DNA of 64,000 nucleotides, taken from the NCBI RefSeq assembly GCF_024584705.1, contig NZ_CP097384.1, positions 2,914,001-2,978,000 of the forward strand, written 5' to 3'. The notes below the pieces were generated by a model that saw only the letters and a list, made by a program, of their open reading frames with translations, was not told the DNA's origin and did no database searches. Position numbers and translations under genes: made by a program. The stretch's first letter is position 1. The number at the start of each line of letters is the position of its first letter. Source of the DNA: Blastopirellula sp. J2-11. Lineage in GTDB: Bacteria > Planctomycetota > Planctomycetia > Pirellulales > Pirellulaceae. This document shows positions 6,857 through 64,000 of the stretch, piece after piece.

Positions 6857-8770
6857 ATGGCGATATTCAAGCCTTACACAACTCTCTCGTTGGCCGCCGC
6901 GCTGGCCGCTGCGGCAACAGGGACGCTGCAAGCCGCGACTCCCACCGTCGAACAGGCGCTGCAGCTTACTCCGCTTCAGGAAGTGGAATACGAAATCCCC
7001 ACGGCGGACGAAATCGCCAAGTGCTCTATCCGCTCGGAAAAGATCAACGGCGCGACCGGCTGGGTCGTTTATGGTCCTGCCGGCGAAAAGATGCGCCAGT
7101 TTGTCGATTCCAACGGGGACAATAAGGTCGATCTCTGGGCCTACTACAACAATGGAATCGAGGTCTATCGCGATCTCGACACCGATTTCAACAGCAAGGC
7201 CGACCAGTATCGTTGGTTGGCGACCGGCGGCTCACGCTGGGGATTTGACGAAAACGAAGATGGCGCGATCGACCGCTGGGAGATCATTTCTCCCGAGGAA
7301 GTCTCGGCCGAAATCGTCGCCGCTGTCCGTGACAAAGACGTCAAACGCTTTCAATCGCTGTTGCTCACGGCCGAGGAAGCGAAGGAATTGGGGCTCGGCA
7401 AAGAGAAGGCTGCCGAGTTGACCAGCTCGCTGGCGGCCGCCGCGAAGGACTTCACGCAATGGGCCGCCGCCCAAACTGCCGTGAAGAACGGCACGAAGTG
7501 GGTTCACTTTGGAGCGACCCGGCCTGGGATTGTCCCGGCCGGAACCGACGGCGCGAGCCAAGACTTGCTGGTCTATGAAAATGTCGCCGCCGTCGTTGAA
7601 ACCGCTGGCGAGCATAGCCAGATCGATATCGGCACATTGGTGAAGTTTGGTAACGCCTGGAAAGTGATCGCGGCGCCGCGCAATGCTGCCGTCGCTGATT
7701 CGGCGGCGTCGCAAGGCTTCTTTTTTCAAGCGTCGTTTGCGGCCAAACGTCCTGGGATGGACGGGGCCGGCGGGCGTCCGGCGGTCAACGCCGAAGCGCA
7801 AAAGCTGCTGGATGAGTTGGAAGCGTTGGATGACAAGTTGACGATGGCGACCACCGCCGCCGCTCGCCAAGACGTGACGAAGAAGCGTATCGTCACGATC
7901 GAAGCGTTGGTTGCGGCCAGCGGCGAAGGAGAAGCTCGCGACAACTGGCTTCGTCAATTGGCCGACGCAATTAGCGCCGGCGTGCAAACTGGCGAATATC
8001 CTGACGGCATGGCGAAGCTGAAAACTCTCGCCGATGCAACCGCCAAAGCGGCGCCGGGCAGCGATGTCGCGTCGTACGTCCAGTTCCGTCAAATGAGTGC
8101 AGACTACACCCAGCAGTTGCAAGATCCGAACGCCAACTTCACCAAGGTGCAGGACGCGTGGCTCGAAAACTTGGAAGGGTTCGTCAAGGCCTACCCCAAG
8201 AGTGATGACGCCGCCGAAGCGATGTTGCAGCTGGCGATCGCCAACGAATTTGCTGGTGAAGAAGACAAGGCGCAGGCCTGGTATGCACAAATTCGCGACG
8301 ACTTTGCTGGCACTTCGCTGGCGAAAAAGGCGGAAGGTTCGGTGCGACGTTTGACTTCGGTCGGCAAGACGATCAACGTGGCGGGCAAAACGCTCGACAA
8401 CAAGCAGGTCAGTCTCGCGTCGCTCAAAGGTCGCGTTGTCTTGGTCCACTTCTGGGCGACCTGGTGCGAACCTTGCAAGCAAGACCAGACGATCATGCGT
8501 CAGCTGCAAGCGAAGTATGGTCGCAAGGGCTTTGAATTGATCGGGGTTAGCCTCGATTCGGACAAAGCCGATCTGTCCAAGTACCTGGCGGAGACGCGCC
8601 TGACCTGGCCGCAGATCTATGAAGATGGTGGACTCGATAGCCCGTTGGCGACCGATTTGGGCGTGTTGACGCTGCCGACGATGTTTTTGGTCGGCGCTGA
8701 TGGCAAGGTCATCAGTCGTAATATTCACGTCAGCCAGCTCGATACCGAATTGAGCAAGCTGCTGAAATAG
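6857..8770 (+). CDS. exported protein with C-terminal TlpA-like thioredoxin domain
   Basis: A 637-aa protein with a Sec signal peptide (residues 1 to about 26, ending TLQA). The N-terminal third has two Asp-rich loops, DSNGDNKVDLW and DENEDGAIDRW, that resemble calcium-binding loops. A helical middle region follows. The C-terminal domain (about 505-637) is an AhpC/TSA-TlpA fold with an active-site WCEPCK (Cys537 and Cys540) and the cis-Pro segment VLTLPTMFL. It probably reduces or oxidises disulfides outside the cytoplasm; the partner is unknown. The ATG at 6857 is chosen because the signal peptide follows at once. The in-frame extension to 6620 would run through the divergent rRNA promoter. 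A terminator follows. Confidence 0.85.
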   Translation: MAIFKPYTTLSLAAALAAAATGTLQAATPTVEQALQLTPLQEVEYEIPTADEIAKCSIRSEKINGATGWVVYGPAGEKMRQFVDSNGDNKVDLWAYYNNGIEVYRDLDTDFNSKADQYRWLATGGSRWGFDENEDGAIDRWEIISPEEVSAEIVAAVRDKDVKRFQSLLLTAEEAKELGLGKEKAAELTSSLAAAAKDFTQWAAAQTAVKNGTKWVHFGATRPGIVPAGTDGASQDLLVYENVAAVVETAGEHSQIDIGTLVKFGNAWKVIAAPRNAAVADSAASQGFFFQASFAAKRPGMDGAGGRPAVNAEAQKLLDELEALDDKLTMATTAAARQDVTKKRIVTIEALVAASGEGEARDNWLRQLADAISAGVQTGEYPDGMAKLKTLADATAKAAPGSDVASYVQFRQMSADYTQQLQDPNANFTKVQDAWLENLEGFVKAYPKSDDAAEAMLQLAIANEFAGEEDKAQAWYAQIRDDFAGTSLAKKAEGSVRRLTSVGKTINVAGKTLDNKQVSLASLKGRVVLVHFWATWCEPCKQDQTIMRQLQAKYGRKGFELIGVSLDSDKADLSKYLAETRLTWPQIYEDGGLDSPLATDLGVLTLPTMFLVGADGKVISRNIHVSQLDTELSKLLK

Positions 8771-51882: not shown

Positions 51883-51956
51883 GGGCGATTAGCTCAGCTG
51901 GTTAGAGCGCCGTCTTCACACGGCGGAGGTCGTTGGTTCGAGTCCAATATCGCCCA
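51883..51956 (+). tRNA. tRNA-Val (anticodon CAC)
   Basis: A 74-nt cloverleaf: acceptor GGGCGAT/ATCGCCC, D stem GCTC/GAGC, anticodon stem CCGTC/GGCGG with loop TTCACAC (CAC at 34-36), and T arm GTTGG-TTCGAGT-CCAAT. No CCA is encoded. It has its own terminator. Confidence 0.93.
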
Positions 51957-51963
51957 CTCCAGC

Positions 51964-51998
51964 AAGGCGCCTTATGTACCGCATAAGGCGCCTTTTTT
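51964..51998 (+). terminator. Rho-independent terminator of tRNA-Val
   Basis: AAGGCGCCTTATG and CATAAGGCGCCTT form a 13-bp perfect stem with a 5-nt loop and a T-tract. Confidence 0.95.
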
Positions 51999-52101
51999 GA
52001 TGCGCCTCAATCTACTGAGTCGTCGAGGGCCGAATGTCTAATCAAGGAGACCGGAAGCACCGCTCTTCGCGCTGTCTTAGTCATTCGCCCTCCACCAGAC
52101 C

Positions 52102-52256
52102 GGACTCTTTTTTGTCCGCCGGGTTGGGTAGGACCGGACCGGACTGTTTTTTGTCCGCCGAGTTGGGCAGGATCGGACCGGACTGTTTTTGTCCGCTGGG
52201 TTGGACAGGACCGGACCGGACTCTTTTTTGTCCGCCGGGTTGGACAGGACCGGACC
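52102..52256. repeat. 39-bp direct tandem repeat, four copies
   Basis: Units at 52102-52140, 52141-52179, 52180-52217 and 52218-52256 (39, 39, 38 and 39 bp), each of the form GGACT, T-run, GTCCGCC, GGGTTGG, AGGACCGGACC; a fifth degenerate unit follows to about 52290. Units abut with no spacers, so this is not a CRISPR array. The region 51999-52488 has no believable gene. Confidence 0.93.
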
Positions 52257-52488
52257 GGACTGTTTGTATTTTTTAAGTTGGACCAGCGGACTCCGTTCAA
52301 AATGGGAAGCAGGCGCGCACCGCGAACGCACCGTTCTGTTCCCTGGAAACAGATCGTCCCTGTGTTGGCCTGAGAGTGTGAGTAAATATTGGCAAAATCG
52401 TAAGTATTTGTCAATACTTGTTCCCGCCTAAACTGTCCCTGCCGGCAATCGGGCGGTGCGTCCAGCAGCGTGCGGTTTCAGAACTCCC

Positions 52489-55400
52489 TTACCCGGCTGC
52501 TCGGGCTCGCAGTTGCTCGTACAAATCCAACCGATCCAATAGCAGCCGTTGCAGGCCGGCTCGGATCTCGGGCGAATTGAGGGCTCTGCTGCTCAGTTCG
52601 GTTTGGATGTCCATGCTTTCCATGATCGCTTCCATGATCTGATTGCTCAGGTCAGGCGAGTTGGCGAATTGCTCTTTCGTGTTGTTCGCCGCTTGCTTCT
52701 GCAGGATCTCTGATTCCAGCGTTTTTTCGGCCACGGTCCTGGCGTACGACAATTGATCTCCGTCGGTCGTATCTCCTCCAAACAGCGTGTTCAGCTGCTC
52801 GATAATCTCGCTCAACAGCGCCTTCTGCTTTTCCTGCACCGATCCGCTCCCCGCTTCGGTCATCGGTTGCAACTGCGGCGCGTCCTCGGCCGACAGCGCC
52901 AAGTTTTGCTGTCCCCGATGGCGGAGCGTATGATGCGTCAGCGTCACTTCGGACAGATCGACCCCTTCTCGCTCGCGGCCGAACTTTAGCAGCCGCACCA
53001 ACGCTTTGAAGAAGATCGCCCGCTTTTCAAAGTCGGTGTTGCCGTAGTCCAGGATCTGCGACAAAAAGGTGTAGGCCCGCACGTAGGTCGTGATGTCGCC
53101 GCGGAAGATCACCAGCGACTCCATCTCATCTTTGGCGACCGCCGCCGCCGACTCGTCTTTGGCTTCGGTGGCTACTTTGTACGATTCCTTGGCGGCAGCG
53201 AATCGTTTGACCAGGCGATCGGCGACCGGCGTGATCGCCGCTTCTAGCTGCGATTGCTTCGCCTTGGGGTTCATTACGACGTTGATCACCCGCTCGATCT
53301 CGTTGTCGTCGTAATAGCCCAGCGCATCCAGCTTGGCCCGCAAGTTCAAAATGATGTTTGGGTCGGTCACATCCGACAGCGACGCCGTCGCATAGTACGT
53401 CTTGAACGCTTTCAGCACTTCATCCGGATCGTTGACAAAGTCGAGCACAAACGTATCGTCTTTGCCCGGGTAGCAGCGATTCAAGCGCGACAGGGTCTGC
53501 ACCGCCTGGATGCCGTCCAGCCGTTTGTCGACATACATCCCGCACAGCAGCGGCTGATCGAAGCCGGTCTGGAACTTACTCGCGACCAGCAAGATTTGGA
53601 ACTGATCCTCCTTGAACGCTTCGCGGATGTCGCGTCCTTTCAGGTCGGGGTTCAGCTCGCGGCTTGTTTCTTTGAACGGATCAGGGCCTGACGGCTTGTC
53701 ATCCACTTCGCCCGAGAACGCAACTAACGTTCGCAGCGCGTAACCCTTCTCCTGAATGTACGCGTTGATCGCCAATTGCCAGCGGACCGCTTCGACGCGA
53801 CTGCTGACCACGACCATCGCTTTGGCCTTTCCTTCCAGCAGCGGCGCGACCACTTCGCGGAAGTGCTCGACCACAATCTGCACCTTCTGGGCGATGTTGT
53901 GCGGGTGCAGCCGCACCCAGTTCATCAGCCCCTTCATCGCCGTGCTGCGCTCCACTTCCGAGTCGATAAACTGCTCGCCCGCTTTGGCCAGCTTAAAGGC
54001 GGCCTTGTAAGACGTGTAGTTCTTCAACACGTCCAGGATAAAACCTTCCTCGATCGCCTGGCGCATCGAGTAAACGTGAAACGGCTCCGGCAGGTTCTCC
54101 TTCGACGCCGGCTGCGACCGATCGCGCGGCCGCCCAAACAACTCCAGCGTTTTTGACTTCGGCGTCGCCGTGAACGCGACGTAGGTGATCCCTTTGTCGC
54201 TGGCCCGCGACGTCATCTCGGCCGCGATGATGTCTTCGGTGCTGACCGTGCCGCCATCGGCCAACTCTTCCTGTTCTTCGACTGACAGGACCGCTTTCAG
54301 CTTCGCCGCCGTTTCGCCCGACTGACTACTGTGCGCCTCGTCGGCGATCACCGCGAACCGCTTCCCCTCGGTCGCCGCCAACTCACGCACCTTGTCGAGC
54401 GCAAACGGAAAGGTCTGAATCGTGCAGACCACAATCTTTTTTGTGCCTGAGAGCGCCTCGGTCAGCTCGCTCGCTTTGCTTCCCTTGTTCCCTTGGATCG
54501 TCGCGACCACGCCGGCGGTTCGTTCAAAGCCGTAGATCACCTCCTGCAACTGCCCGTCGATCACTTTGCGGTCCGAGACGACCAGCACCGTATCGAAGAT
54601 CTTTTTGTTATCGGCGTCATGCAGATCGGCCAAAAAGTGGGCGGTCCACGCGATCGAGTTGGTCTTGCCCGAGCCGGCTGAATGCTGGATCAGATATTTT
54701 TGCCCGGGGCCTTCGCTCAGCACCGCGTCTTGCAGCATCCGCGTGACGACCAGCTGATGATAGCGGGGGAAGATCAGCTTGGTGATTTGTTTCTTTTTGT
54801 CGCGTTCGGCCACCATGTAGCGGGCCAAGATCTCTAGCAGGCTCTCGCGCCGCCAAACCTGGTCCCACAGATAGGCGGTCCGATGCCCGGCCGGGTTCAG
54901 CGGATTGCCGGCGGCGCCGTCGTCTCCCTGATCGAACGGCAAGAACGTCGTCCGCATCCCGGCTAACCGGGTCGTCATCTTCACGCGACTGCTGCTGACG
55001 GCAAAATGAACCAGCGCCCCCGACGGAAACGACAACAGCGGCTCAGCCGATTTCCCCTTCGGCGCCGGGTCTCGGTCTTTTTTGTATTGATAGACGGCGT
55101 CCTCCAGACTCTGCGTGTTGTCGGTCTTCAACTCGGCCGTCGCGATCGGGATGCCGTTGAGGAAAAGCACCAGGTCGATGCTGTTCTCGTTATGCAACGA
55201 GTACCGCACCTGACGCACGACTCGCAGGCGATTGGCCGCATAGCGGGTCATGATGTCAGGATTCATCGCCAGCGCCGGTTTGAACTGGGCCATCTTTAGC
55301 GGCTGCTGCAATCCCAGCACATCAAACCCAACCCGCAACAGTTCGAGCGTCCCGATTTGATTCAACGAATCACGCAGCCGCTTCAGCAGTGTGACTTCGG

Positions 55401-55596
55401 CGGCGGCGCCGTGGTTCTTTTGCAGCCGCTCCCAGGCATCCGGCTGCGTCGCTTGCACCCAGGCGATTACATCCGCCGGAAACAGGGCCAACTGGCGGTC
55501 ATACAGGGCCGCATCGTTCGCCGCGTACAGCCAGCCATGTTTTGCAAGACGCTCGCAAATCTCGTCTTCAAACTTGATTTCGGTATGCAGGCTCAT
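52489..55596 (-). CDS. hsdR: type I restriction endonuclease subunit R
   Basis: A 1035-aa motor and nuclease subunit of a type I restriction-modification enzyme. The N-terminal nuclease has a PD-(D/E)XK pattern with Asp141 and Glu155-x-Lys157 (ENSIDLVLF, IATAELKTDN). The helicase follows with Walker A HSAGSGKT (Lys311), DEAH box IADEAHSS (419-422) and later superfamily 2 motifs such as AFTATPK and LVASKFQTGFDQP. The C-terminal helical part joins the methylase core. Length and motifs are complete, so it is likely active. It is the last gene of the hsd cluster, 343 bp after the preceding gene. Confidence 0.95.
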   Translation of the reverse strand: MSLHTEIKFEDEICERLAKHGWLYAANDAALYDRQLALFPADVIAWVQATQPDAWERLQKNHGAAAEVTLLKRLRDSLNQIGTLELLRVGFDVLGLQQPLKMAQFKPALAMNPDIMTRYAANRLRVVRQVRYSLHNENSIDLVLFLNGIPIATAELKTDNTQSLEDAVYQYKKDRDPAPKGKSAEPLLSFPSGALVHFAVSSSRVKMTTRLAGMRTTFLPFDQGDDGAAGNPLNPAGHRTAYLWDQVWRRESLLEILARYMVAERDKKKQITKLIFPRYHQLVVTRMLQDAVLSEGPGQKYLIQHSAGSGKTNSIAWTAHFLADLHDADNKKIFDTVLVVSDRKVIDGQLQEVIYGFERTAGVVATIQGNKGSKASELTEALSGTKKIVVCTIQTFPFALDKVRELAATEGKRFAVIADEAHSSQSGETAAKLKAVLSVEEQEELADGGTVSTEDIIAAEMTSRASDKGITYVAFTATPKSKTLELFGRPRDRSQPASKENLPEPFHVYSMRQAIEEGFILDVLKNYTSYKAAFKLAKAGEQFIDSEVERSTAMKGLMNWVRLHPHNIAQKVQIVVEHFREVVAPLLEGKAKAMVVVSSRVEAVRWQLAINAYIQEKGYALRTLVAFSGEVDDKPSGPDPFKETSRELNPDLKGRDIREAFKEDQFQILLVASKFQTGFDQPLLCGMYVDKRLDGIQAVQTLSRLNRCYPGKDDTFVLDFVNDPDEVLKAFKTYYATASLSDVTDPNIILNLRAKLDALGYYDDNEIERVINVVMNPKAKQSQLEAAITPVADRLVKRFAAAKESYKVATEAKDESAAAVAKDEMESLVIFRGDITTYVRAYTFLSQILDYGNTDFEKRAIFFKALVRLLKFGREREGVDLSEVTLTHHTLRHRGQQNLALSAEDAPQLQPMTEAGSGSVQEKQKALLSEIIEQLNTLFGGDTTDGDQLSYARTVAEKTLESEILQKQAANNTKEQFANSPDLSNQIMEAIMESMDIQTELSSRALNSPEIRAGLQRLLLDRLDLYEQLRARAAG

Positions 55597-55939
55597 CGCA
55601 CTCAGTTTCTTGGGGTATCGGGACAGCTGCAGCTGGGGGCCACATGTACCTGTGACTCATCTGTTACTCATTGGCAGCTTCGTGAGTCATGGATCGGAAA
55701 ATACGAGTCACTAAAGCCAGAAAAGACCAAGTTTTCACCTGACACGCCATCCGCAACGCATAAGTGCCGTAAGTTATTTCATACAAATAGGTTGTGTGAT
55801 TCACGTGTTTTTAGCGACTCCCGCGTTGTGTCTATCTGAATCGACAGAACGCGGTTTGTGTCTATCCAGGCTGGCATGCAGCAGACACAAAAACGTTTGC
55901 GTCTATTGCAGCAAACTTAAAGCAAGCAGGATCGATTGG
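55597..55939 (-). other. intergenic region upstream of hsdR
   Basis: No gene or clear repeat is seen in this 343-bp gap. It is long enough to give hsdR its own promoter, and more AT-rich than its surroundings. Confidence 0.45.
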
Positions 55940-56965
55940 TTACGCATCCCCATTCTCTTCCTGCTCGTCTTCTGCGATTTCATCCACATCCGCGATCAGT
56001 TGCCGCACGCGAGGCGCGAAAACTTGATGGAGGGCGTTCAAGTTTTGATACAACCATTGATAATAGTTGGACCATTGCGACTCATCTTTTAAATCGACGT
56101 ATTTCACCAAGTAGATTCTCTTACGCTTGACCTCCTCGTCCGAGGCCCAGTTTAAGGGCTCGCCCATCTCCGTTTCCAATTCCTCGCGCTGCGCGTAGAA
56201 CTGGTCGAAAAAGGTTTGAGAAGTCTCTTTGCCCATACTGACTTCGACTCGCAGCTCATCCTCGTTATTTGCAAGCCCAAGCGAAGCGATCGCGACCAAA
56301 CGCACGCCCGAACGGCCCAGGCTAAACCACAGCGAAGTTTTCGTACTTGGCTTATGGGTAACCGGAAAACGACAAGTCCGCTGTTGCAAGTAATCCAAAA
56401 ACTTCGTCCAAAAACGGAAGCGACGATCCTTAGCGGGCGTCAGTTCGCCTCCTTCGATTCCTTTCGCTCCTCCAGCGGCCCGTTTCTGCCAATTGTTGGG
56501 GGAACTGATCACATGAAATTTAGGTGCAATCGCCGAATTGCCGATCCGCCACAGTTCGACTTGTAGACCGAAGAACCGCACCTCTTCACTCGTCACGCTA
56601 TTCAGCCAGTCGAGCGCTGCGCGGTGCTCTTCCCGAAACTTCTGCGAAATCCAAACAATGGTCACCGTGTTCAGGCCGGCGGCGTAGGTGATCAACTGTC
56701 CCAGATGGCGATGGTCGGTTTGCTCCAGTTGATTCTCGATGAGCACCAACTGGTCGTCGAGATCTTTGCAGAGGATATCGGCTCGAAACGGCCCTACACT
56801 TTTCTCCATCGCTTCGACTTCCAGATCGATCCCGATCGTCTCGCTTAGCAACGCGATATTTTCCTCTTGCGCCAACCAAGGGGTGAAGTCACTCGCCTCC
56901 GATTGCCAAGCGTCGCGTAAATCTACAGGCATCAATCTGCCCAATTGAATTGGCGTCGGCGTCAC
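55940..56965 (-). CDS. DUF4268 protein with PD-(D/E)XK-like N-terminus
   Basis: A 341-aa protein. Residues 40-105 give a nuclease-like core: GPFRADILC (Asp63) then LVLIENQLEQTDH (Glu77 and Gln79 in ENQ), followed by a Gln/Leu/Gly helix GQLITYAAGL. The C-terminal half (about 190-330) matches DUF4268 in style, with FYAQREELETEMGEPLNW. Such proteins often lie beside restriction genes. The catalytic Lys of a typical PD-(D/E)XK site is replaced by Gln, so activity is uncertain. GTG start with GAGG about 8 nt upstream; ATG 56932 is an alternative. Confidence 0.8.
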   Translation of the reverse strand: MTPTPIQLGRLMPVDLRDAWQSEASDFTPWLAQEENIALLSETIGIDLEVEAMEKSVGPFRADILCKDLDDQLVLIENQLEQTDHRHLGQLITYAAGLNTVTIVWISQKFREEHRAALDWLNSVTSEEVRFFGLQVELWRIGNSAIAPKFHVISSPNNWQKRAAGGAKGIEGGELTPAKDRRFRFWTKFLDYLQQRTCRFPVTHKPSTKTSLWFSLGRSGVRLVAIASLGLANNEDELRVEVSMGKETSQTFFDQFYAQREELETEMGEPLNWASDEEVKRKRIYLVKYVDLKDESQWSNYYQWLYQNLNALHQVFAPRVRQLIADVDEIAEDEQEENGDA

Positions 56966-57066
56966 GTCCGTTCCCTCGTCGTTTTATTTGTGAATGAATC
57001 TTTCTGAATCCACGCTACTTCCGCAACAACTTGGCGAAGACCTACCTTCAATGGGCAAGCTCATCG

Positions 57067-58041
57067 TCAGGATCCTTCATAGCTGGCTTGCAACAGCGGC
57101 AGCGCCTTTTCCAAATCGTTTTGACTCCGAATCATGATTTCTAGATCCCCAGTTCCCCAGTGACCGATGTTGCGTACGTCACGTGTAAAACCTTCCTCTA
57201 GCGCAATCATGTCAGGATCAAGTTTTACAAAGACGGCCAAGCAATTGGTTCCTGCCCTCACCTCGGCGGTGGCGAAATTCTTTAATCGCTTGAACGCCAC
57301 GTATAACTTCAACATTTTCATTTGCACATCATCGCCAAAGCTCATACACATCGCTTCAAGCGATCCAAAGAGATCCAATAACTCAGGCGAGGCGCTCAGC
57401 ATTTGTTCGGAGACGGACTTGTCCTTCTGTCTCGCTTTATTTCTGGCACGGATAGCAGATTCGACTTCCTCGGTTGTGTTGGCTTCCACGAGTATCTCTA
57501 TCGGCGCTGTAGTTCCTACTTCCACCAGCGATTTCGCTTGAACCGCATTGACCAACTCCAACAACAGCAACTCATCGCCGAACCGCAGATAACGCAGCAA
57601 CTCAATATTGCGATTGATCTGCGAAACCGCGTGCCCATCGTACTTGGTGAAACCGCCAGCGATACACAGCAGTCGCGGGCTCGACCATTCGATATTCTCC
57701 GCCGCTTCAGCGCCCAGCGTTTTCAGCACCAGCAGCTCGAACTCGCCGCGATGATCCAGCAGCCAGTCCAGGTAATAGAGCCCCTGGTTGATCACGTTCT
57801 CGTTGCTCGAGCGTTTGTATTCGATGATGCAGGGGCAACCATTCTCGTCGATCCCCAGCGTATCGATTCGCCCGCCGTGCGTTTTGCCGGTCGAATACTC
57901 GGTGGCGAGGAACCGTATCCCCAAAAAGATGTCGAGATGCCGTTCGATCAATTTTTGCAGCGACTTTTCGAGCGCGACCGATTGCCCTTCAAGCTGGGTG
58001 ACGGTCTCGCCGTTAGTACGAAAGAGTTTGATATCACTCAT
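57067..58041 (-). CDS. PD-(D/E)XK nuclease-like protein with DUF5655-type C-terminus
   Basis: A 324-aa protein. The N-terminal domain has GGRIDTLGID (Asp60) and CIIEYKRSS (Glu74-x-Lys76), a full PD-(D/E)XK motif, with a downstream Gln/Tyr helix NQGLYYLDWLLDH, as in NucS-like or DUF91 nucleases. The C-terminal third (about 215-320) resembles DUF5655 (MLKLYVAFKRLKNFATAEV, HWGTGDLEIMI). Its start overlaps the hsdS stop by 4 nt (ATGA), and GGAG lies 6 nt upstream, so it is translationally coupled to hsdS. A part in restriction or defence is inferred from location. Confidence 0.83.
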   Translation of the reverse strand: MSDIKLFRTNGETVTQLEGQSVALEKSLQKLIERHLDIFLGIRFLATEYSTGKTHGGRIDTLGIDENGCPCIIEYKRSSNENVINQGLYYLDWLLDHRGEFELLVLKTLGAEAAENIEWSSPRLLCIAGGFTKYDGHAVSQINRNIELLRYLRFGDELLLLELVNAVQAKSLVEVGTTAPIEILVEANTTEEVESAIRARNKARQKDKSVSEQMLSASPELLDLFGSLEAMCMSFGDDVQMKMLKLYVAFKRLKNFATAEVRAGTNCLAVFVKLDPDMIALEEGFTRDVRNIGHWGTGDLEIMIRSQNDLEKALPLLQASYEGS

Positions 58042-59399
58042 GATGTCTCCAGGCAAGCAAACTGGCGAACGTCAATCTTGCCGGTCACGGCGGCGGAAAT
58101 GAGAGCGGTGCGGCGTTCTTGGAGGAGGGTTATGGCGCGTTCAGCTTCTTCCGAGAGTAATTCGATTTTTGCAATCGACGTATCAAGATATTCAATAATA
58201 TCTCGCTGTTCTGCGTTCGGTGGCAAAGGCATTTTCAACTTTTCTAGTTGACCACACGTGATTGCCCCTTTTGTGCTTCCAGTTCCATCGCTTTCTTCTC
58301 GGATATTCCAATATGCTTTCTGGAAAAATCGATGAATATACGACACTGATGTGCGGTTTTCACGTGGCTTCAAGTATGCGAGATGCTGATTGATCGTAGC
58401 CTCGAATTGAAGAATCGTGGCCATACCACGAGTCCGACCTTGACCAGTAATTCCGACAAGAACAGCTGGTGGTGTGATTTTTGGCAGATGGCATTCATCT
58501 AGTGCAACCTGAGTAACGAACTGATCCGCTTTCGTTACTTCCGATTGATTCACTACCGAGCTATTGAGCCAAGGGTAAATTCCGTTGTCCCAGTAATGAG
58601 CGTTTTTCCTGTCCGGTGTCGAGCCATTGCCAATTTGAGTAAGCAATTTCAGCTTTACCACCTCCCAATGTTCAGGCACATCCCCCAGCCACTCAATCCC
58701 CGACGGTTTCATCCGCACGTGGGGGTCAAGACCTTTGGTGACCGCGTGGCTGATGACCGCCTGGCGTTTTTCCTGCAGCAGCTCAATCAACCGCCGCTGC
58801 TCGGCCACCAACGCGTCAATCTTGGCGGTCTCGGCGTCGAGGAAACTCGCGATCGCTTGTTGTTCTTCGAGTGGGGGCGCTGTAAGTTGAAATCTGCCGA
58901 ATTGCTCCTGTGTGAGATTCTTCATGCTCGAACTTGTGCCTGTGCAACTCGCTTTTACTTGGTGACGATAGCTCGACGTTAATGTCCAATAGTGAACGAA
59001 TTTGGTCAGAGAACCGTTAAATGTTACCTGCCACAATCTATCTGGCAGGTAGAGATTTGACGGAGCGTGTTCGACATAGCCTGCCGCACCAATCAAATCA
59101 GGAGTATTCATTCGACTCACAATCAGCGAGCTCGGTTTCAAGGGACATGAAACCCGATCGAGTTCATTGACATCGACCTTCTTGTTTTCTGATGCTCTAA
59201 ATTCACCGGTGTAAACGGCACTTGTTTTCAATACGCCAATTTCATTTTCGCCCGCAGGGTCATCCGTTGCATTTACGCTTGTGCCCGACTCCACCGCAGC
59301 GATAATTCGCTTCAAGCGAACCACATTCCAGTTCGCCGGCACGATCCCCAGTAATTCATCGCCACTATCCCTATACTCCTCATACTTTGGAAAACTCAC
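58038..59399 (-). CDS. hsdS: type I restriction-modification specificity subunit S
   Basis: A 453-aa subunit that reads the bipartite DNA target. Two target-recognition domains are seen. The first spans about 15-170 and ends with MKNLTQEQFGRFQLTAPPLEEQQAI; the second spans about 230-405 and ends with GQLEKLKMPLPPNAEQRDII. Each is followed by a spacer helix (LDAETAKIDALVAEQRRLIELL and LDTSIAKIELLSEEAERAITLL). The start is a GTG that overlaps the hsdM stop by 4 nt (GTGA), with GGAGG about 9 nt upstream. Open frame further upstream lies over hsdM and is rejected. Confidence 0.94.
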   Translation of the reverse strand: MSFPKYEEYRDSGDELLGIVPANWNVVRLKRIIAAVESGTSVNATDDPAGENEIGVLKTSAVYTGEFRASENKKVDVNELDRVSCPLKPSSLIVSRMNTPDLIGAAGYVEHAPSNLYLPDRLWQVTFNGSLTKFVHYWTLTSSYRHQVKASCTGTSSSMKNLTQEQFGRFQLTAPPLEEQQAIASFLDAETAKIDALVAEQRRLIELLQEKRQAVISHAVTKGLDPHVRMKPSGIEWLGDVPEHWEVVKLKLLTQIGNGSTPDRKNAHYWDNGIYPWLNSSVVNQSEVTKADQFVTQVALDECHLPKITPPAVLVGITGQGRTRGMATILQFEATINQHLAYLKPRENRTSVSYIHRFFQKAYWNIREESDGTGSTKGAITCGQLEKLKMPLPPNAEQRDIIEYLDTSIAKIELLSEEAERAITLLQERRTALISAAVTGKIDVRQFACLETS

Positions 59400-61150
59400 T
59401 GCGATAGCCCTCCGATCATCTCCACAATCCGGTCGGTCACCCCTTTCAATTCGGCGTCGATCTCGGCCAGTTCGCGCGGCGGTTTGAAGACGTAGAAGTG
59501 GCGGTTGAAGGGGATTTCGTAGCCGGTTTTGGTCTTGTCGTGATCGATCCATGCGTCGGGGACATGCGGCAGCACTTCCCGCGCGAAGTAGCTTTCGATC
59601 GCTTCGCTCAGCGGGACTTCTTCGGTATCGCGGAGGCTGCTGTCGGGCCTGGGTTGGCCTTTCCGTTTTCCTTTGGTCTCTTTCTCCACGTTGCCGGCGT
59701 CGTCGCGCTGGGGGCGTTCGACCGTGATCGTTTGGTAGCCGAACTCCTCGTTTTTGAAGATCCGGCTGATCGGGACTTTTTGGCCGTCGGCGTCTTTGGT
59801 GCTCGCGTTCTTGGCGTCGCCAAACAGCCGCGTGATTTTTTCGATATGTTCGTCCGACAGTTCTTTTCGTTTGCTGCCCAAGCTCTTCCGCATTTTTTGC
59901 CATAGGCCGCTCGCGTCGATCAGTTGGACTTTTCCCTTACGGTGTTTCGGCTTGCGGTTGGTGACGATCCAGATGTAGGTGCTGATGCCGGTGTTGTAGA
60001 ACATGTCGGTCGGCAGGCCGATGATCGCTTCGAGCAGGTCATTCTCGAGGACGTAGCGGCGGATCTCGCTTTCGCCGCTGCCGGCGCCGCCGGTGAACAG
60101 CGGCGAACCGTTGAGGACGATGCCGAACCGGCTGCCCCCATCTTTGGCCGGGCGCATCTTCGAGATCAGATGCATCAGAAATAACAGCGAACCATCGCTG
60201 ACCCGCGGCAACCCGGGACCGAAGCGACCGTTGTAGCCGAGCTGTTCGTGCTCTTTTTTGATTTCCTTTTGGATCTTTTTCCATTCGACCCCGAACGGCG
60301 GATTGGAAAGCATGTAGTCAAAATGCTGCCCGGGCAGGCCATCGTCGGAGAGGGTATTGCCGTGGATGATATGGCGGATGTCTTGCCCTTTGATCAGCAT
60401 GTCGGCCTTGCAGATCGCGTAGGACTCGCCGTTGAGCTCTTGGCCGTGCATCACGAGGCGCGCGTCGGGGTTTTGCTCGCTGAGATGATCTTCAGCGACC
60501 GAGAGCATGCCGCCTGTGCCGGCGGTCGGATCGTACATCGAGCGGACGACGCCGGGCTTGGTGAGCGCGTCGTCATCTTCGATAAACAGGAGGTTGACCA
60601 TCAGCCGAATCACTTCACGCGGGGTAAAGTGCTCTCCGGCGGTCTCGTTGGAGATTTCGGCGAACTTGCGAATCAGCTCTTCAAAGACGGAGCCCATCTG
60701 CTCGTTGGTGACGACGTCGGGATGCAGGTCAATGTTGGCGAACTTTTCGGTCACCAGGTACAGGAGGTTGGCCTTGGCCAGACGCTCGATCTGCACGGGG
60801 AAATCGAAACAGTCAAAGATATCGCGGACGTCGGGCGAAAAGGCCTGGACGTAGGAGAAGAGGTTCTCGCGAATGTTGTCTTGGTCCCCCATCAGCCGTT
60901 TGATATCGAGCGGAGAGGTATTGTAGAAGAGCTGCTGCGCCTTTTTGAGCAGGAACGGCTCGGGATTGACGCCGGCCGCGGACCGCTTCTCTTGCTCTTT
61001 CAAAACGGCGGCCTTGGTCGGCTCTAACACGCAATCAAGCCGCCGCAAGACGGTAAACGGCAGGATCACGCGGCCATATTCGGACTGTTTGTAATCGCCG
61101 CGGAGCAGATCGGCGACCGACCAAATGAACGAGGAGAGATTTTGATTCAT
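59396..61150 (-). CDS. hsdM: type I restriction-modification DNA N6-adenine methyltransferase
   Basis: A 584-aa methylase subunit. A helical N-terminal domain (1-140) is followed by the SAM domain with motif I DPTAGTGGML (207-216) and the catalytic motif IV NPPF (283-286). It methylates adenine in the target read by HsdS and forms the core of the restriction complex. The C-terminal part (after about 420) is less conserved and includes a Lys/Arg-rich KETKGKRKGQPRP stretch. It is the first gene of the cluster, so the promoter lies in 61151-61604. Confidence 0.95.
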   Translation of the reverse strand: MNQNLSSFIWSVADLLRGDYKQSEYGRVILPFTVLRRLDCVLEPTKAAVLKEQEKRSAAGVNPEPFLLKKAQQLFYNTSPLDIKRLMGDQDNIRENLFSYVQAFSPDVRDIFDCFDFPVQIERLAKANLLYLVTEKFANIDLHPDVVTNEQMGSVFEELIRKFAEISNETAGEHFTPREVIRLMVNLLFIEDDDALTKPGVVRSMYDPTAGTGGMLSVAEDHLSEQNPDARLVMHGQELNGESYAICKADMLIKGQDIRHIIHGNTLSDDGLPGQHFDYMLSNPPFGVEWKKIQKEIKKEHEQLGYNGRFGPGLPRVSDGSLLFLMHLISKMRPAKDGGSRFGIVLNGSPLFTGGAGSGESEIRRYVLENDLLEAIIGLPTDMFYNTGISTYIWIVTNRKPKHRKGKVQLIDASGLWQKMRKSLGSKRKELSDEHIEKITRLFGDAKNASTKDADGQKVPISRIFKNEEFGYQTITVERPQRDDAGNVEKETKGKRKGQPRPDSSLRDTEEVPLSEAIESYFAREVLPHVPDAWIDHDKTKTGYEIPFNRHFYVFKPPRELAEIDAELKGVTDRIVEMIGGLSQ

Positions 61151-61604
61151 CGCAGGCTTTGCATTCTGGCAAATTCAAACGGCGTTCATTTGCCGCAGAA
61201 GTAGGGAAACCGCCCTACTTTAACGGGGCAGCCAAGCCAACGCATCCCTGTTGGCGCCGATGAGCGGCGAATATGGAGAGGATGGCCATACAGGCCGTTT
61301 TATCCGTACGGTTTGACACGGTTGGTCCAAGGGGGGCGACGATCAAGGAGAAACTTGGATCGACGACCGAACGACGCGTTAGACCGCCCCTCGCAGGCAA
61401 CCCGCACCCTGCGTAACAGGCATGCTTCGGCGCTTGCGCGAATGGTCATAAATGTTGTGCGCCGGCGGTTATATACGGGTAAAGATCGTGTCAATTATAT
61501 TCGGGTTTCTCATTCAAGAAAAATCGCTGCTTGCTTGGGTGAGGCGCCGCATCATGCCATTTTCGTTTTTTATTCTATCGTTTGGAACTGGGGAGGTATC
61601 TGTG
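61151..61604. other. intergenic region between divergent hsdM and DUF1559 genes
   Basis: About 450 bp, expected to hold promoters for both directions. I see no gene, and no clear operator. Confidence 0.45.
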
Positions 61605-62486
61605 ATGGCTGTTCAAAATGGGGAGTCGCGCCGGCGTGGTTTTACGTTGGTCGAATTGTTGGTGGTGATCGCCATTATTGGGGTGTTGATCGCGCTGCTG
61701 TTGCCTGCGGTGCAGCAGGCTCGCGAGGCGGCGCGGCGCAACTCTTGCTCGAATAACTTGAAGCAGATTGGCCTGGCGCTGCACAATCACCACGACGTCC
61801 AGCAGAAGTTTCCGCCGGGTTACATCGCGACTGCGAAAGATAGTTCGACCTACGGGTGGGCGACCTATATCTTGCCTTATATGGAGCAGGTCAATCTCTA
61901 CGAAGCTATCGGAAAACCGACCTCCGTTTTAGATAGCGGCGTCAACAAAGGGGGCGCGATCATTGGGGCTTATCAATGTCCTTCGTCCATCATGAAGGAC
62001 AAGCACGAAGATGGTTTCGCCCGGTCGAACTATGTTGGCAACGGCGGCCAAGCCAACGGACTGTCGAGCGACTACGGCGGTTTTTTTGCGGACAAGAGCA
62101 AGTTCAAGTTTCGCGATATGGTGGACGGCACAAGCAACACGATCATGGCCGGCGAAGCGGAAGGACCTGGAGATGATGCGGACCCGGGTTTTCCTGTTTG
62201 GTCCGGCACTTGGCATAACCGAGTCAGCTATACCAACGGCCGCTTGGCGACCGTCCGCGTGGGGAACGAAGCGAATCCGATCAACGGCGGGCTGACCGCG
62301 ACCGGGGCGGATCGCTCTCCCTTCTCGAGCCGTCATCCCGGTGGCGCTCAATTTGTCTTCGCTGACGGAAGCTCGCATTTCATTGCAGAAACGGTGGAGG
62401 TCGGCACCAACGACGCGATCGCCAACTACGGCGTTTATCTGCGGTTGCTTGTCCGCAACGACGGCTTGGTGATCGGCGACTACTAA
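61605..62486 (+). CDS. DUF1559 domain protein with prepilin-type leader
   Basis: A 293-aa paralogue of the protein at 16016. The leader [18 protein letters not shown] has a pseudopilin cleavage site (Gly-Phe), then [18 protein letters not shown] and the C-terminal [26 protein letters not shown] lies 8 nt before ATG 61605. The in-frame extension to 61452 lacks a ribosome-binding site and is rejected. The next gene, 32 bp on, is a small lipoprotein as at the other locus. Confidence 0.93.
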
Positions 62487-62518
62487 TCCAAGCTTGTTTC
62501 AACCAGGGATTTTTTTCA

Positions 62519-62908
62519 ATGAACCATGTTTTGAAAATGTTTTGCGGGGCCTGTCTTGCCGGCATGATGATTGGTTGCACAGGCGGAGATTTGAAGTCTG
62601 TCGCTGGGATGGTCACCATCGATGGCCAACCAGCCGCGGGAGTCAAAGTGATCTTCGTACCGCTCGAAGGGGGCCGGGCGAACTCGCTGGCTCGCACCGA
62701 TGAGGAAGGCCGATATACGCTGGCCTACACCAGCCAACACGCCGGAGCGAAGCCGGGCGCCTACAAGGTGCTGGTCACCCAAGAAGAGATGAACACCGGG
62801 CGAGAGCTGATTCCACCGCGCTATAGCAGCGGCGGCAAGACGGATCTGCGTGCGGAAGTGATCGAAGGGGGCGAGAACGTCTTCAACTTTGAGATCGAGT
62901 CGAAGTAA
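62519..62908 (+). CDS. lipoprotein with carboxypeptidase-regulatory-like domain
   Basis: A 129-aa lipoprotein; lipobox MMIGC with the Cys at about residue 20. The mature domain is a beta sandwich of the same kind as the lipoprotein at 17105: VTIDGQPAAGVKVIFVPL, TDEEGRYTLAY, GENVFNFEIESK. It is likely co-transcribed with the DUF1559 gene. Function unknown; the pairing suggests the two products work together at the envelope. Confidence 0.85.
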   Translation: MNHVLKMFCGACLAGMMIGCTGGDLKSVAGMVTIDGQPAAGVKVIFVPLEGGRANSLARTDEEGRYTLAYTSQHAGAKPGAYKVLVTQEEMNTGRELIPPRYSSGGKTDLRAEVIEGGENVFNFEIESK

Positions 62909-62940
62909 GTCTTCGGTCGGTAGGTTCTTGTGTAAACCAC

Positions 62941-62966
62941 GGCGCACGCAATGAAATGCGTGCGCC
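62941..62966. repeat. 10-bp perfect inverted repeat
   Basis: GGCGCACGCA and TGCGTGCGCC flank a 6-nt loop after the lipoprotein gene. No T-tract follows, so it is a weak terminator at best. Confidence 0.55.
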
Positions 62967-63045
62967 AGCGTCATGTGCGATTCTAAAACGTGCTAAAATT
63001 CAATCGCATTGGTTTAGCAACGACGCACGAAATAGTGAGTGACGC

Positions 63046-64000
63046 ATGTCAAACCGCCCTCGGCTTGACCTGGATGTGATGCAACGGCGGGTCTGCGATG
63101 TGGCGTCTCGTCAGCTTTGCATTCCGCGCAGTGAGATCAGCCCTGCGAGTCGCCTAATCGAAGACTTGCAATGCGATAGTCTCGATTTGGTCGAATTGTT
63201 GATGGAATTGGAGGAGGAATTTCTGGTCACGATTCCAGATCGTCCAGAAAGTGCTGTCGGCAAATCGATCTTTACGCGTCAACCTTTTCGGATTTGCGAT
63301 CTTGCTGAGATGGTCTACTTGCAGCAAGGGACCGGCATGCCTGTTCGCACTCGTAAGGGGCGACGACGAATGGTCGCTGATTTTTCCAACGCAACGCCGT
63401 TCTCTCAACTAAGTGGTCATTTTCAGGCCGATCCGAAGTTTGAACCCTTTGAGCCGCTTGGCTGCGAGCAGGGGATCCAGCAATTCCGCCGTCGTCGCGA
63501 TGGAATGCGCTGCGCGCTGATTCCGGCGGCGGAATTCGCAATGGGAAGCGATGACCCCGCGTGTCAATCCGATGAGCGACCGGTTCATCAAGTTCTGTTG
63601 GATGCGTACCTGATTGATATCGAGCCGGTATCGACCACCGCATACTGCCGGTTCCTGAATTCGAATGCAACGACATCCACAGAACATCGCGACTGGTTTC
63701 TACTTGACCCGACCGACGACCGCGCCCCCCAGATGCCGATCATTCAGGTCGAAGATGCGTGGCGTCCCGTCGTTGGGGCCGAGACCTTGCCGATGGTGTT
63801 GGTCTCGTGGTACGGCGCCAACGCCTATTCACTCTGGGCGAATGGATCATCGTTTGCTCAATACCGTACAGCCGCTGGTTTTCTTCCGACTGAAGCGCAA
63901 TGGGAGCACGCCGCAGCCGGCGCCTATCCGCAAGGTAATGACGCGCCGTTGATTTTTGGGCAGCACCAGCGAGGCGCGGTTTATGACGCCCATTCGATGC
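63046..64000 (+). CDS. acyl carrier protein fused to FGE-sulfatase (SUMF1/EgtB-type) domain, partial
   Basis: At least 318 codons, cut by the window end. Residues 1-90 are an acyl carrier protein: the signature CDSLDLVELLMELEEEF has the phosphopantetheine Ser45. A linker rich in basic and polar residues (about 95-150) follows. From about 155 the protein is a formylglycine-generating-enzyme-like (SUMF1/PvdO/EgtB) domain: ALIPAAEFAMGSDD, DERPVHQVLLDAYLIDIEPV, MVLVSWYGANAYSLWA, and GFLPTEAQWEHAAAG. Such domains oxidise Cys or other groups or act as C-type-lectin-like modules. Fusion to a carrier protein suggests oxidation of a tethered acyl or aminoacyl group. The gene has no partner visible to the left. 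Confidence 0.85.
   Translation, partial: MSNRPRLDLDVMQRRVCDVASRQLCIPRSEISPASRLIEDLQCDSLDLVELLMELEEEFLVTIPDRPESAVGKSIFTRQPFRICDLAEMVYLQQGTGMPVRTRKGRRRMVADFSNATPFSQLSGHFQADPKFEPFEPLGCEQGIQQFRRRRDGMRCALIPAAEFAMGSDDPACQSDERPVHQVLLDAYLIDIEPVSTTAYCRFLNSNATTSTEHRDWFLLDPTDDRAPQMPIIQVEDAWRPVVGAETLPMVLVSWYGANAYSLWANGSSFAQYRTAAGFLPTEAQWEHAAAGAYPQGNDAPLIFGQHQRGAVYDAHSM

Follow-up and report, generated by a model that had tools for sequence, protein, structure and literature searches.

The gene at the right-hand edge of the DNA analyzed here raises two questions: whether it truly joins an acyl carrier protein (ACP) to a formylglycine-generating enzyme (FGE)-like domain in one polypeptide, and what such a protein might do. 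The stretch analyzed (the window) comprises 64,000 nucleotides of Blastopirellula sp. J2-11, C1:2914001-2978000 of genome G000, a 6.43-Mb single-contig genome, and holds the following parts of the gene.

63046..64000, + strand: ACP-FGE fusion gene, 5′ three quarters (open reading frame still open at the window end)
63067..63339, + strand: acyl carrier protein domain, residues about 8 to 98 (PP-binding profile, structural alignment, invariant columns)
63178..63180, + strand: codon of Ser45, predicted phosphopantetheine attachment site (D44-S45-L46 invariant)
63340..63492, + strand: linker, residues about 99 to 149, mostly the least conserved part (alignment, dN/dS)
63493..64000, + strand: FGE/SUMF1-like domain, of which residues about 150 to 318 of 150 to 410 lie in the window (profile, alignments, structure matches)

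Beyond the window, the G000 gene continues for 317 bases to genome position C1:2978317 and closes as a single frame of 423 amino acids (L003 2047-3318; genome C1:2977046-2978317), a protein of ~47 kDa as estimated from its length. The frame shows neither a stop nor a shift between residues 90 and 155, which excludes a reading as two separate genes. A search for further ACP-FGE fusions, suggested by the original prediction, recovered 24 intact copies (43 to 94% identical) and one broken copy, all in Planctomycetota and with a patchy spread. These copies exclude a frame error, and the recurrence of the fusion in other species excludes an assembly join. Both halves are under purifying selection, with dN lower than dS in all six pairs, of seven, that gave a usable NG86 estimate. 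Between G000 and G002, the dN/dS values were 0.109/0.717 (ACP) and 0.153/0.97 (FGE) by NG86, and 0.134/0.397 and 0.134/1.207, respectively, by YN00. The idea that the join is a frame error, a chimera, or a decaying gene was rejected as having negligible probability: the broken copy (G862) speaks for it, but the 24 intact copies and the dN/dS values of both halves speak against it.

The N-terminal half bears the full ACP signature that had been predicted. The Pfam PP-binding profile scored 30.5 bits (cut-off, 20.8) over residues 15 to 65 of the 318-residue window fragment, and Ser45 lies within DSLD, of which the DSL was kept in all 24 intact copies. In a structural model of the protein, many ACP chains aligned to residues 5 to 97 (Z of about 10 to 12; rmsd, 1.8 to 2.6); 1x3o, for example, matched the ACP half with a Z of 11.3 and an rmsd of 2.1 over 79 aligned residues. 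The G000 genome also holds three loci of the phosphopantetheinyl transferase (PPTase) family, the partner whose presence next to the gene had been proposed as a check. Judging from the conserved serine and its surroundings, Ser45 is predicted to bear phosphopantetheine in a holo form.

The domain resembles fatty-acid ACPs in its fold, its DSL serine, and the sequence of helix II but differs from them in sitting within a 423-residue protein and in having a longer segment past helix II. This segment carries a conserved, family-specific stretch, FxRxxxRxxDxxE, at residues 76 to 88. The fusion also scored below the cut-off of TIGR00517, the equivalog for stand-alone ACPs (50.4 of 70.45). A scan of the collected loci for the FxRxxxRxxDxxE motif, with a pattern that missed the G430 fusion copy, returned only fusions and no stand-alone ACP with the post-helix-II stretch (one locus, L124, ends inside the gene). 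Elsewhere in the same genome, three PP-binding domains with a 348-base spacing form a tandem carrier array within one 3581-residue frame (G000:C1:3130830-3131729).

The C-terminal half has the predicted FGE/SUMF1-type fold by both profile and structure, but the canonical copper cysteine pair of that family is broken. The Pfam FGE-sulfatase profile (cut-off, 23.3) scored 68.2 bits over residues 158 to 294 of the window fragment, and 128.7 bits over profile positions 7 to 254 for the complete domain. An AlphaFold model built from 17 orthologues had a mean pLDDT of 70.8, with the C-terminal third poorly predicted (residues 339 to 403 below 50). Residues about 115 to 415 of this model gave near-tied matches to PvdO, FGE, CalU17, and EgtB (Z, 10.6 to 11.6; rmsd, 3.5 to 4.3; 188 to 201 aligned residues): PvdO at a Z of 11.6 and rmsd of 4.2 over 201 residues, CalU17 at 11.1 and 3.5 over 193, EgtB at 10.6 and 3.6 over 188, and FGE chains at a Z of about 10 to 11. 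With SUMF1/FGE the fusion shares the fold, the GGS, LPTEA, GNVWxWC, and GFRC motifs, and the second active-site cysteine (C387); it differs in having glycine for the first copper cysteine, extra invariant cysteines, and an attached ACP. With the EgtB and SenA equivalogs, the window fragment stayed well under the required scores (46.6 against a cut-off of 360 and 38.2 against 420), and the Pfam scan of the same fragment found no DinB domain. To our knowledge, the PvdO, CalU17, and EgtB/OvsA-type members lack a carrier domain.

The cysteines set this domain apart most clearly. Among the 12 cysteines of the window protein, six (C156, C201, C345, C387, C403, and C408) are invariant across the 24 copies, all of them in the FGE half; C345, C387, C403, and C408, like G382, lie past the window end. 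Alignment to the Thermomonospora curvata FGE maps the two FGE active-site cysteines, which we take to be the copper-binding pair, to G382 and C387, and these positions are glycine and cysteine in 24 of 24 intact copies (17 in alignment A2, with the key residues of the remaining 7 checked separately). All 17 fused rows have C156, C201, and C403, which no row of the 21 nonfused FGE domains has (some are gapped there); C387 and C408 recur in part of these 21, and five of them have both canonical cysteines. The nonfused set combined 5 domains from G000 with 16 found elsewhere and included several partial ones; two loci, L131 and L132, gave no match when it was aligned. The 17 fused rows also share a near-unchanged block, SERGGSW..GP..LC...RRGR....GRCLGFRC, at an overall identity down to 43%. 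When a tree was built with 15 nonfused rows (L041, L049, L127, L128, L129, and L130 having been dropped beforehand), the fused FGE domains formed a single clade with 100/100 support, with about 3.4 changes per column between them and all other rows (2.54 + 0.86 around the midpoint root). The ACP tree shared 5 of 14 splits with the FGE tree and showed some supported conflicts; it is a weak tree owing to the short ACP, and the comparison supports neither co-inheritance nor domain swapping.

Could the fusion nevertheless be a true FGE, generating formylglycine on a partner protein, with the ACP as a docking domain? The T. curvata and Streptomyces coelicolor enzymes were among its best PDB sequence matches (5nxl, 93.0 bits, and 2q17, 91.9 bits). 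Against this, the first copper cysteine is glycine in every intact copy, and genes that looked sulfatase-like by eye were found in two stretches only, adjoining the fusion in G106 and farther from it in G430; planctomycetes encode many sulfatases. We consider this reading very improbable. Since the first copper cysteine is replaced throughout and six other cysteine positions are invariant, the domain is not a canonical FGE, and ordinary FGE oxidation by the fusion is unlikely.

Of 346 genomes sampled from the order, 9 had a full-length copy, as did 10 of 392 from the phylum (three common to the order set); the family set yielded 14 of 241, one a broken copy. Together these are 21 distinct genomes, 20 with intact copies and 1 with the broken copy, and the counts are lower bounds because only 4 to 7 candidates per genome were scored, so that the genomes counted as lacking the fusion may include some misses. 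In a set of 60 genomes for which every candidate was scored, 3 had the fusion. A scan of an 84,980-species collection with six peptide patterns, which reach close relatives only, found it in 6 of 23 loci, all labeled Planctomycetota: G002 (Blastopirellula marina), G332, and four further MAGs, one of them labeled Phycisphaerales (by its record label only). The broken copy in G862 (L105, about 7825-8567) has lost its N terminus, its middle, and the carrier serine, and the hydrolase frame beside it is still open. The fusion was not found on plasmids or phages: among the matches listed, 1 of 320 plasmid records covered 80% of the query, starting at residue 73, past the carrier serine, and 0 of 11 phage records did so.

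The original prediction knew of no common family with this join, and our searches bear it out. The domains are known singly; results from Pfam, NCBIfam, PADLOC, and PHROGs never showed their join, clade, and cysteine pattern together as one unit. No PADLOC model describes an ACP-FGE fusion, and neither such a fusion nor an ACP in RNA repair appeared among the titles and abstracts listed from the open PMC literature.

The genomic setting of the window copy is an island with fixed borders and exchanged content, extending from window position 51883 to 64000 and on to about 15336 in L003. Its features in the window are as follows.

51883..51957, + strand: tRNA-Val (cac), left anchor of the variable island (tRNA search; flanks syntenic in four genus genomes)
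52489..61150, − strand: type I restriction-modification genes HsdR, HsdS, and HsdM (PADLOC)
55940..58056, − strand: PADLOC candidates PDC-S11 and PDC-S18, between HsdR and HsdS (PADLOC)

Four genomes of the genus share a left flank of tRNA-Val(cac) and TolQ/ExbD-like and TatA-like genes (named by eye) and a right flank with a giant cadherin-like gene (also named by eye). Between these flanks, G000 carries the type I restriction system with the two candidate defense genes, ACP-FGE, and DUF1559, DUF1549, and DUF1501 genes; G002 carries ACP-FGE and an RlaP pair; and G001 and G003 carry Hen1, Pnkp, and an RlaP pair without ACP-FGE. The interior is thus a restriction system, RNA repair, or ACP-FGE. 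Given the shared flanks and differing content, the gene occupies a variable island that carries RNA repair in sister species. This is the strongest link of the window copy to RNA repair, and it is indirect: neither RlaP nor a PNKP-ligase domain was found in the G000 genome, no relative of the hydrolase described below was found there at an E value of 1e-20, and none of the tested neighbor genes lies within 20 kb around the G000 fusion. Just after the tRNA-Val gene, the window also contains a tandem array of a 39-base unit (4.4 copies, window 52094-52265).

Across genomes, the fusion tends to co-occur with RlaP, which according to a passage in PMC7824862 is predicted to restore lost nucleotides ahead of ligation. 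RlaP was present in 18 of 21 fusion genomes (absent from G000, G332, and G430) versus 9 of 31 controls (Fisher P = 7e-5), where the controls were the first nonfusion genomes listed from the two families concerned, and hence nonrandom, and species are not independent; three genomes of other families (G048, G052, and G069) were excluded from them. In 9 of the 18 genomes having both, the two genes lay less than 24 kb apart (51 bp and 1.7, 1.8, 3.0, 9.1, 9.9, 12.7, 13.2, and 23.8 kb), and in the other nine the distance exceeded 250 kb or the genes were on different contigs. By our own arithmetic, a distance below 25 kb in a 7-Mb genome has a chance of roughly 0.7% for one RlaP locus; the nine close genomes span five genera, five of the nine being from one genus. 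PNKP-ligase was not enriched (9 of 21 fusion versus 8 of 31 control genomes; P = 0.24), a count that leaves aside two partial matches, one of 26 residues in G113 and one below the cut-off in G332. The association with RNA-repair islands is statistical, drawn from related species and nonrandom controls.

The fusion lies inside an RNA-repair gene run in one genome. In G214, a codirectional run comprises Thg1, RNA ligase, HD-kinase, Hen1, RlaP, R2K ATP-grasp, RlaP, ACP-FGE, and Pnkp; the ACP-FGE and Pnkp frames overlap by 13 bases (mechanical calling), and between the first RlaP and R2K lies a 0.6-kb gap with a small opposite open reading frame. Within 8 kb downstream of the fusion, G596, G656, G699, and G736 also have matches to some of the genes Thg1, RNA ligase, HD-kinase, Hen1, and Pnkp. 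The fusion is thus near Pnkp-Rnl-Hen1/RlaP clusters in several genomes but is absent from the RlaP islands of G001, G003, G497, and G540. Word counts found neither "acyl carrier" nor "formylglycine" in the main texts of PMC7824862, PMC9503650, and PMC4431377. Two further observations concern the RlaP genes. Two distinct RlaP paralogues, with A before B and not always directly adjacent, are present in 15 of 16 islands (L106 to L121); in the 16th, L108, the gene list shows A only and a profile search places two RlaP matches. An EF-Tu gene lies near RlaP in three planctomycete genomes (L075 5322-6593, L114 9659-10972, and, as a shorter frame, L120 6615-7400).

Other neighbors include ADP-ribose and NAD genes. 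Directly upstream of the fusion, G014 and G329 have an R2K ligase and a macro-domain gene with weak DarG similarity, with PARG 6.2 and 2.4 kb away, respectively; downstream of it in G409 are nicotinate phosphoribosyltransferase, an isochorismatase-family gene, and KptA. According to a passage in PMC4431377, R2K enzymes are predicted peptide ligases with a proposed role in conflicts. A search of 41 genomes for a thioesterase-like alpha/beta hydrolase found it in 4, each time directly after the fusion (gaps between match ends of 40 bases in G329, 37 in G825, 37 in G836, and 55 in G862), and its Ser68, Asp182, and His201 are invariant in all four. Its presence alone was not significantly associated with the fusion (4 of 21 fusion versus 0 of 20 control genomes, 20 of the 31 controls having been used; P = 0.11), and its alignment had no PDB match at an E value of 0.01. 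None of the tested neighbor genes appeared in the stretch read in 9 of 21 fusion genomes and in all 4 extra MAG loci (one stretch being 7 kb). A constant operon partner was sought and rejected: hydrolase, R2K, macro, RlaP, NAD-salvage, and KptA genes each adjoin the fusion only in some genomes, and no constant loading enzyme was found among the fusion neighborhoods.

These neighborhoods bear on the suggestion, made in the original prediction, that the protein performs a tailoring step of a natural product or lipid. The FGE-like PvdO belongs to a natural-product pathway, as does CalU17 according to its entry title, and both a carrier arm and a thioesterase-like neighbor would fit such a setting. 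However, synthase, adenylation, and ketosynthase genes were not noticed among the neighbors (by eye, with Pfam on selected genes), and the neighbors that recur around other copies are instead genes of RNA repair, ADP-ribose, and NAD. Around the window copy, too, the open reading frame lists, read by eye and scanned in part, revealed no acyl-activating enzyme, sulfatase, polyketide cluster, or lipid cluster of the kind anticipated. A biosynthetic tailoring role now seems unlikely.

The main rival is a noncatalytic sensor or scaffold, in which a binder with a C-type-lectin-like fold is combined with a regulatory or docking ACP, senses an acyl, thiol, or nucleotide state, and recruits or controls partners encoded in the island. 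Treponema denticola variable protein 1 and PorK, members of the same superfamily that are not known to be enzymes, were among the matches, and the broken catalytic pair and the lack of a constant enzymatic partner are both consistent with binding. A pure binder would have little need, however, for six invariant cysteines and a near-unchanged SERGGSW...GFRC block in proteins of identity down to 43%, or for the dedicated hydrolase neighbor of four genomes. We regard this alternative as possible though doubtful.

We tentatively favor, at a confidence still short of even, a stand-alone carrier-plus-tailoring enzyme, in which a group tethered to holo-ACP would be altered by the FGE-like domain. With a carrier serine, private cysteines, and in some genomes a ligase before and a hydrolase after the gene, carrier-tethered modification is the simplest model, and from these features we infer its holo form, loading, catalysis, substrate, and biological role as follows. 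A PPTase would convert Ser45 to the 4′-phosphopantetheine form, and a carboxylic group (aminoacyl, peptidyl, or acyl) would be loaded onto the arm, in some species perhaps by the neighboring R2K ATP-grasp ligase. The FGE-like domain may then modify either the group on the arm or its thiol, probably through redox chemistry that depends on a metal or on O2, at an altered cysteine site in which Cys387 is kept, its partner Cys is replaced by Gly, and Cys156, Cys201, and Cys403 are added. The product would be transferred or released, in some species by the dedicated alpha/beta hydrolase. Modification of a carrier-held substrate, as originally proposed, thus stays plausible with the thioesterase-like hydrolase following the gene in four genomes, whereas oxidation of the ordinary FGE type is the part of that proposal that does not hold up well.

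The carrier-plus-tailoring gene would, in its biological role, be an accessory of genome islands for RNA repair, ADP-ribose metabolism, and defense, and its neighborhoods hint that stress or conflict with phages might involve a carrier-bound chemistry as yet undescribed. Carrier proteins hold substrates on a tether during biosynthesis, and FGE-fold proteins oxidize cysteines, make sulfoxides, or bind ligands. A more specific and rather speculative extension is that the ACP is where an activated group, aminoacyl or similar, is assembled, that a new cysteine-based site in the FGE fold then alters this group, and that its target is damaged RNA, a repair enzyme, or a translation factor, to which it is delivered. 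If a carrier arm did act in RNA repair or translation defense in this way, it would be a form of carrier-protein chemistry for which we know of no precedent outside biosynthesis. The fusion may point either to a catalytic center new to the SUMF1 superfamily or to a first connection of RNA repair with carrier-protein chemistry.
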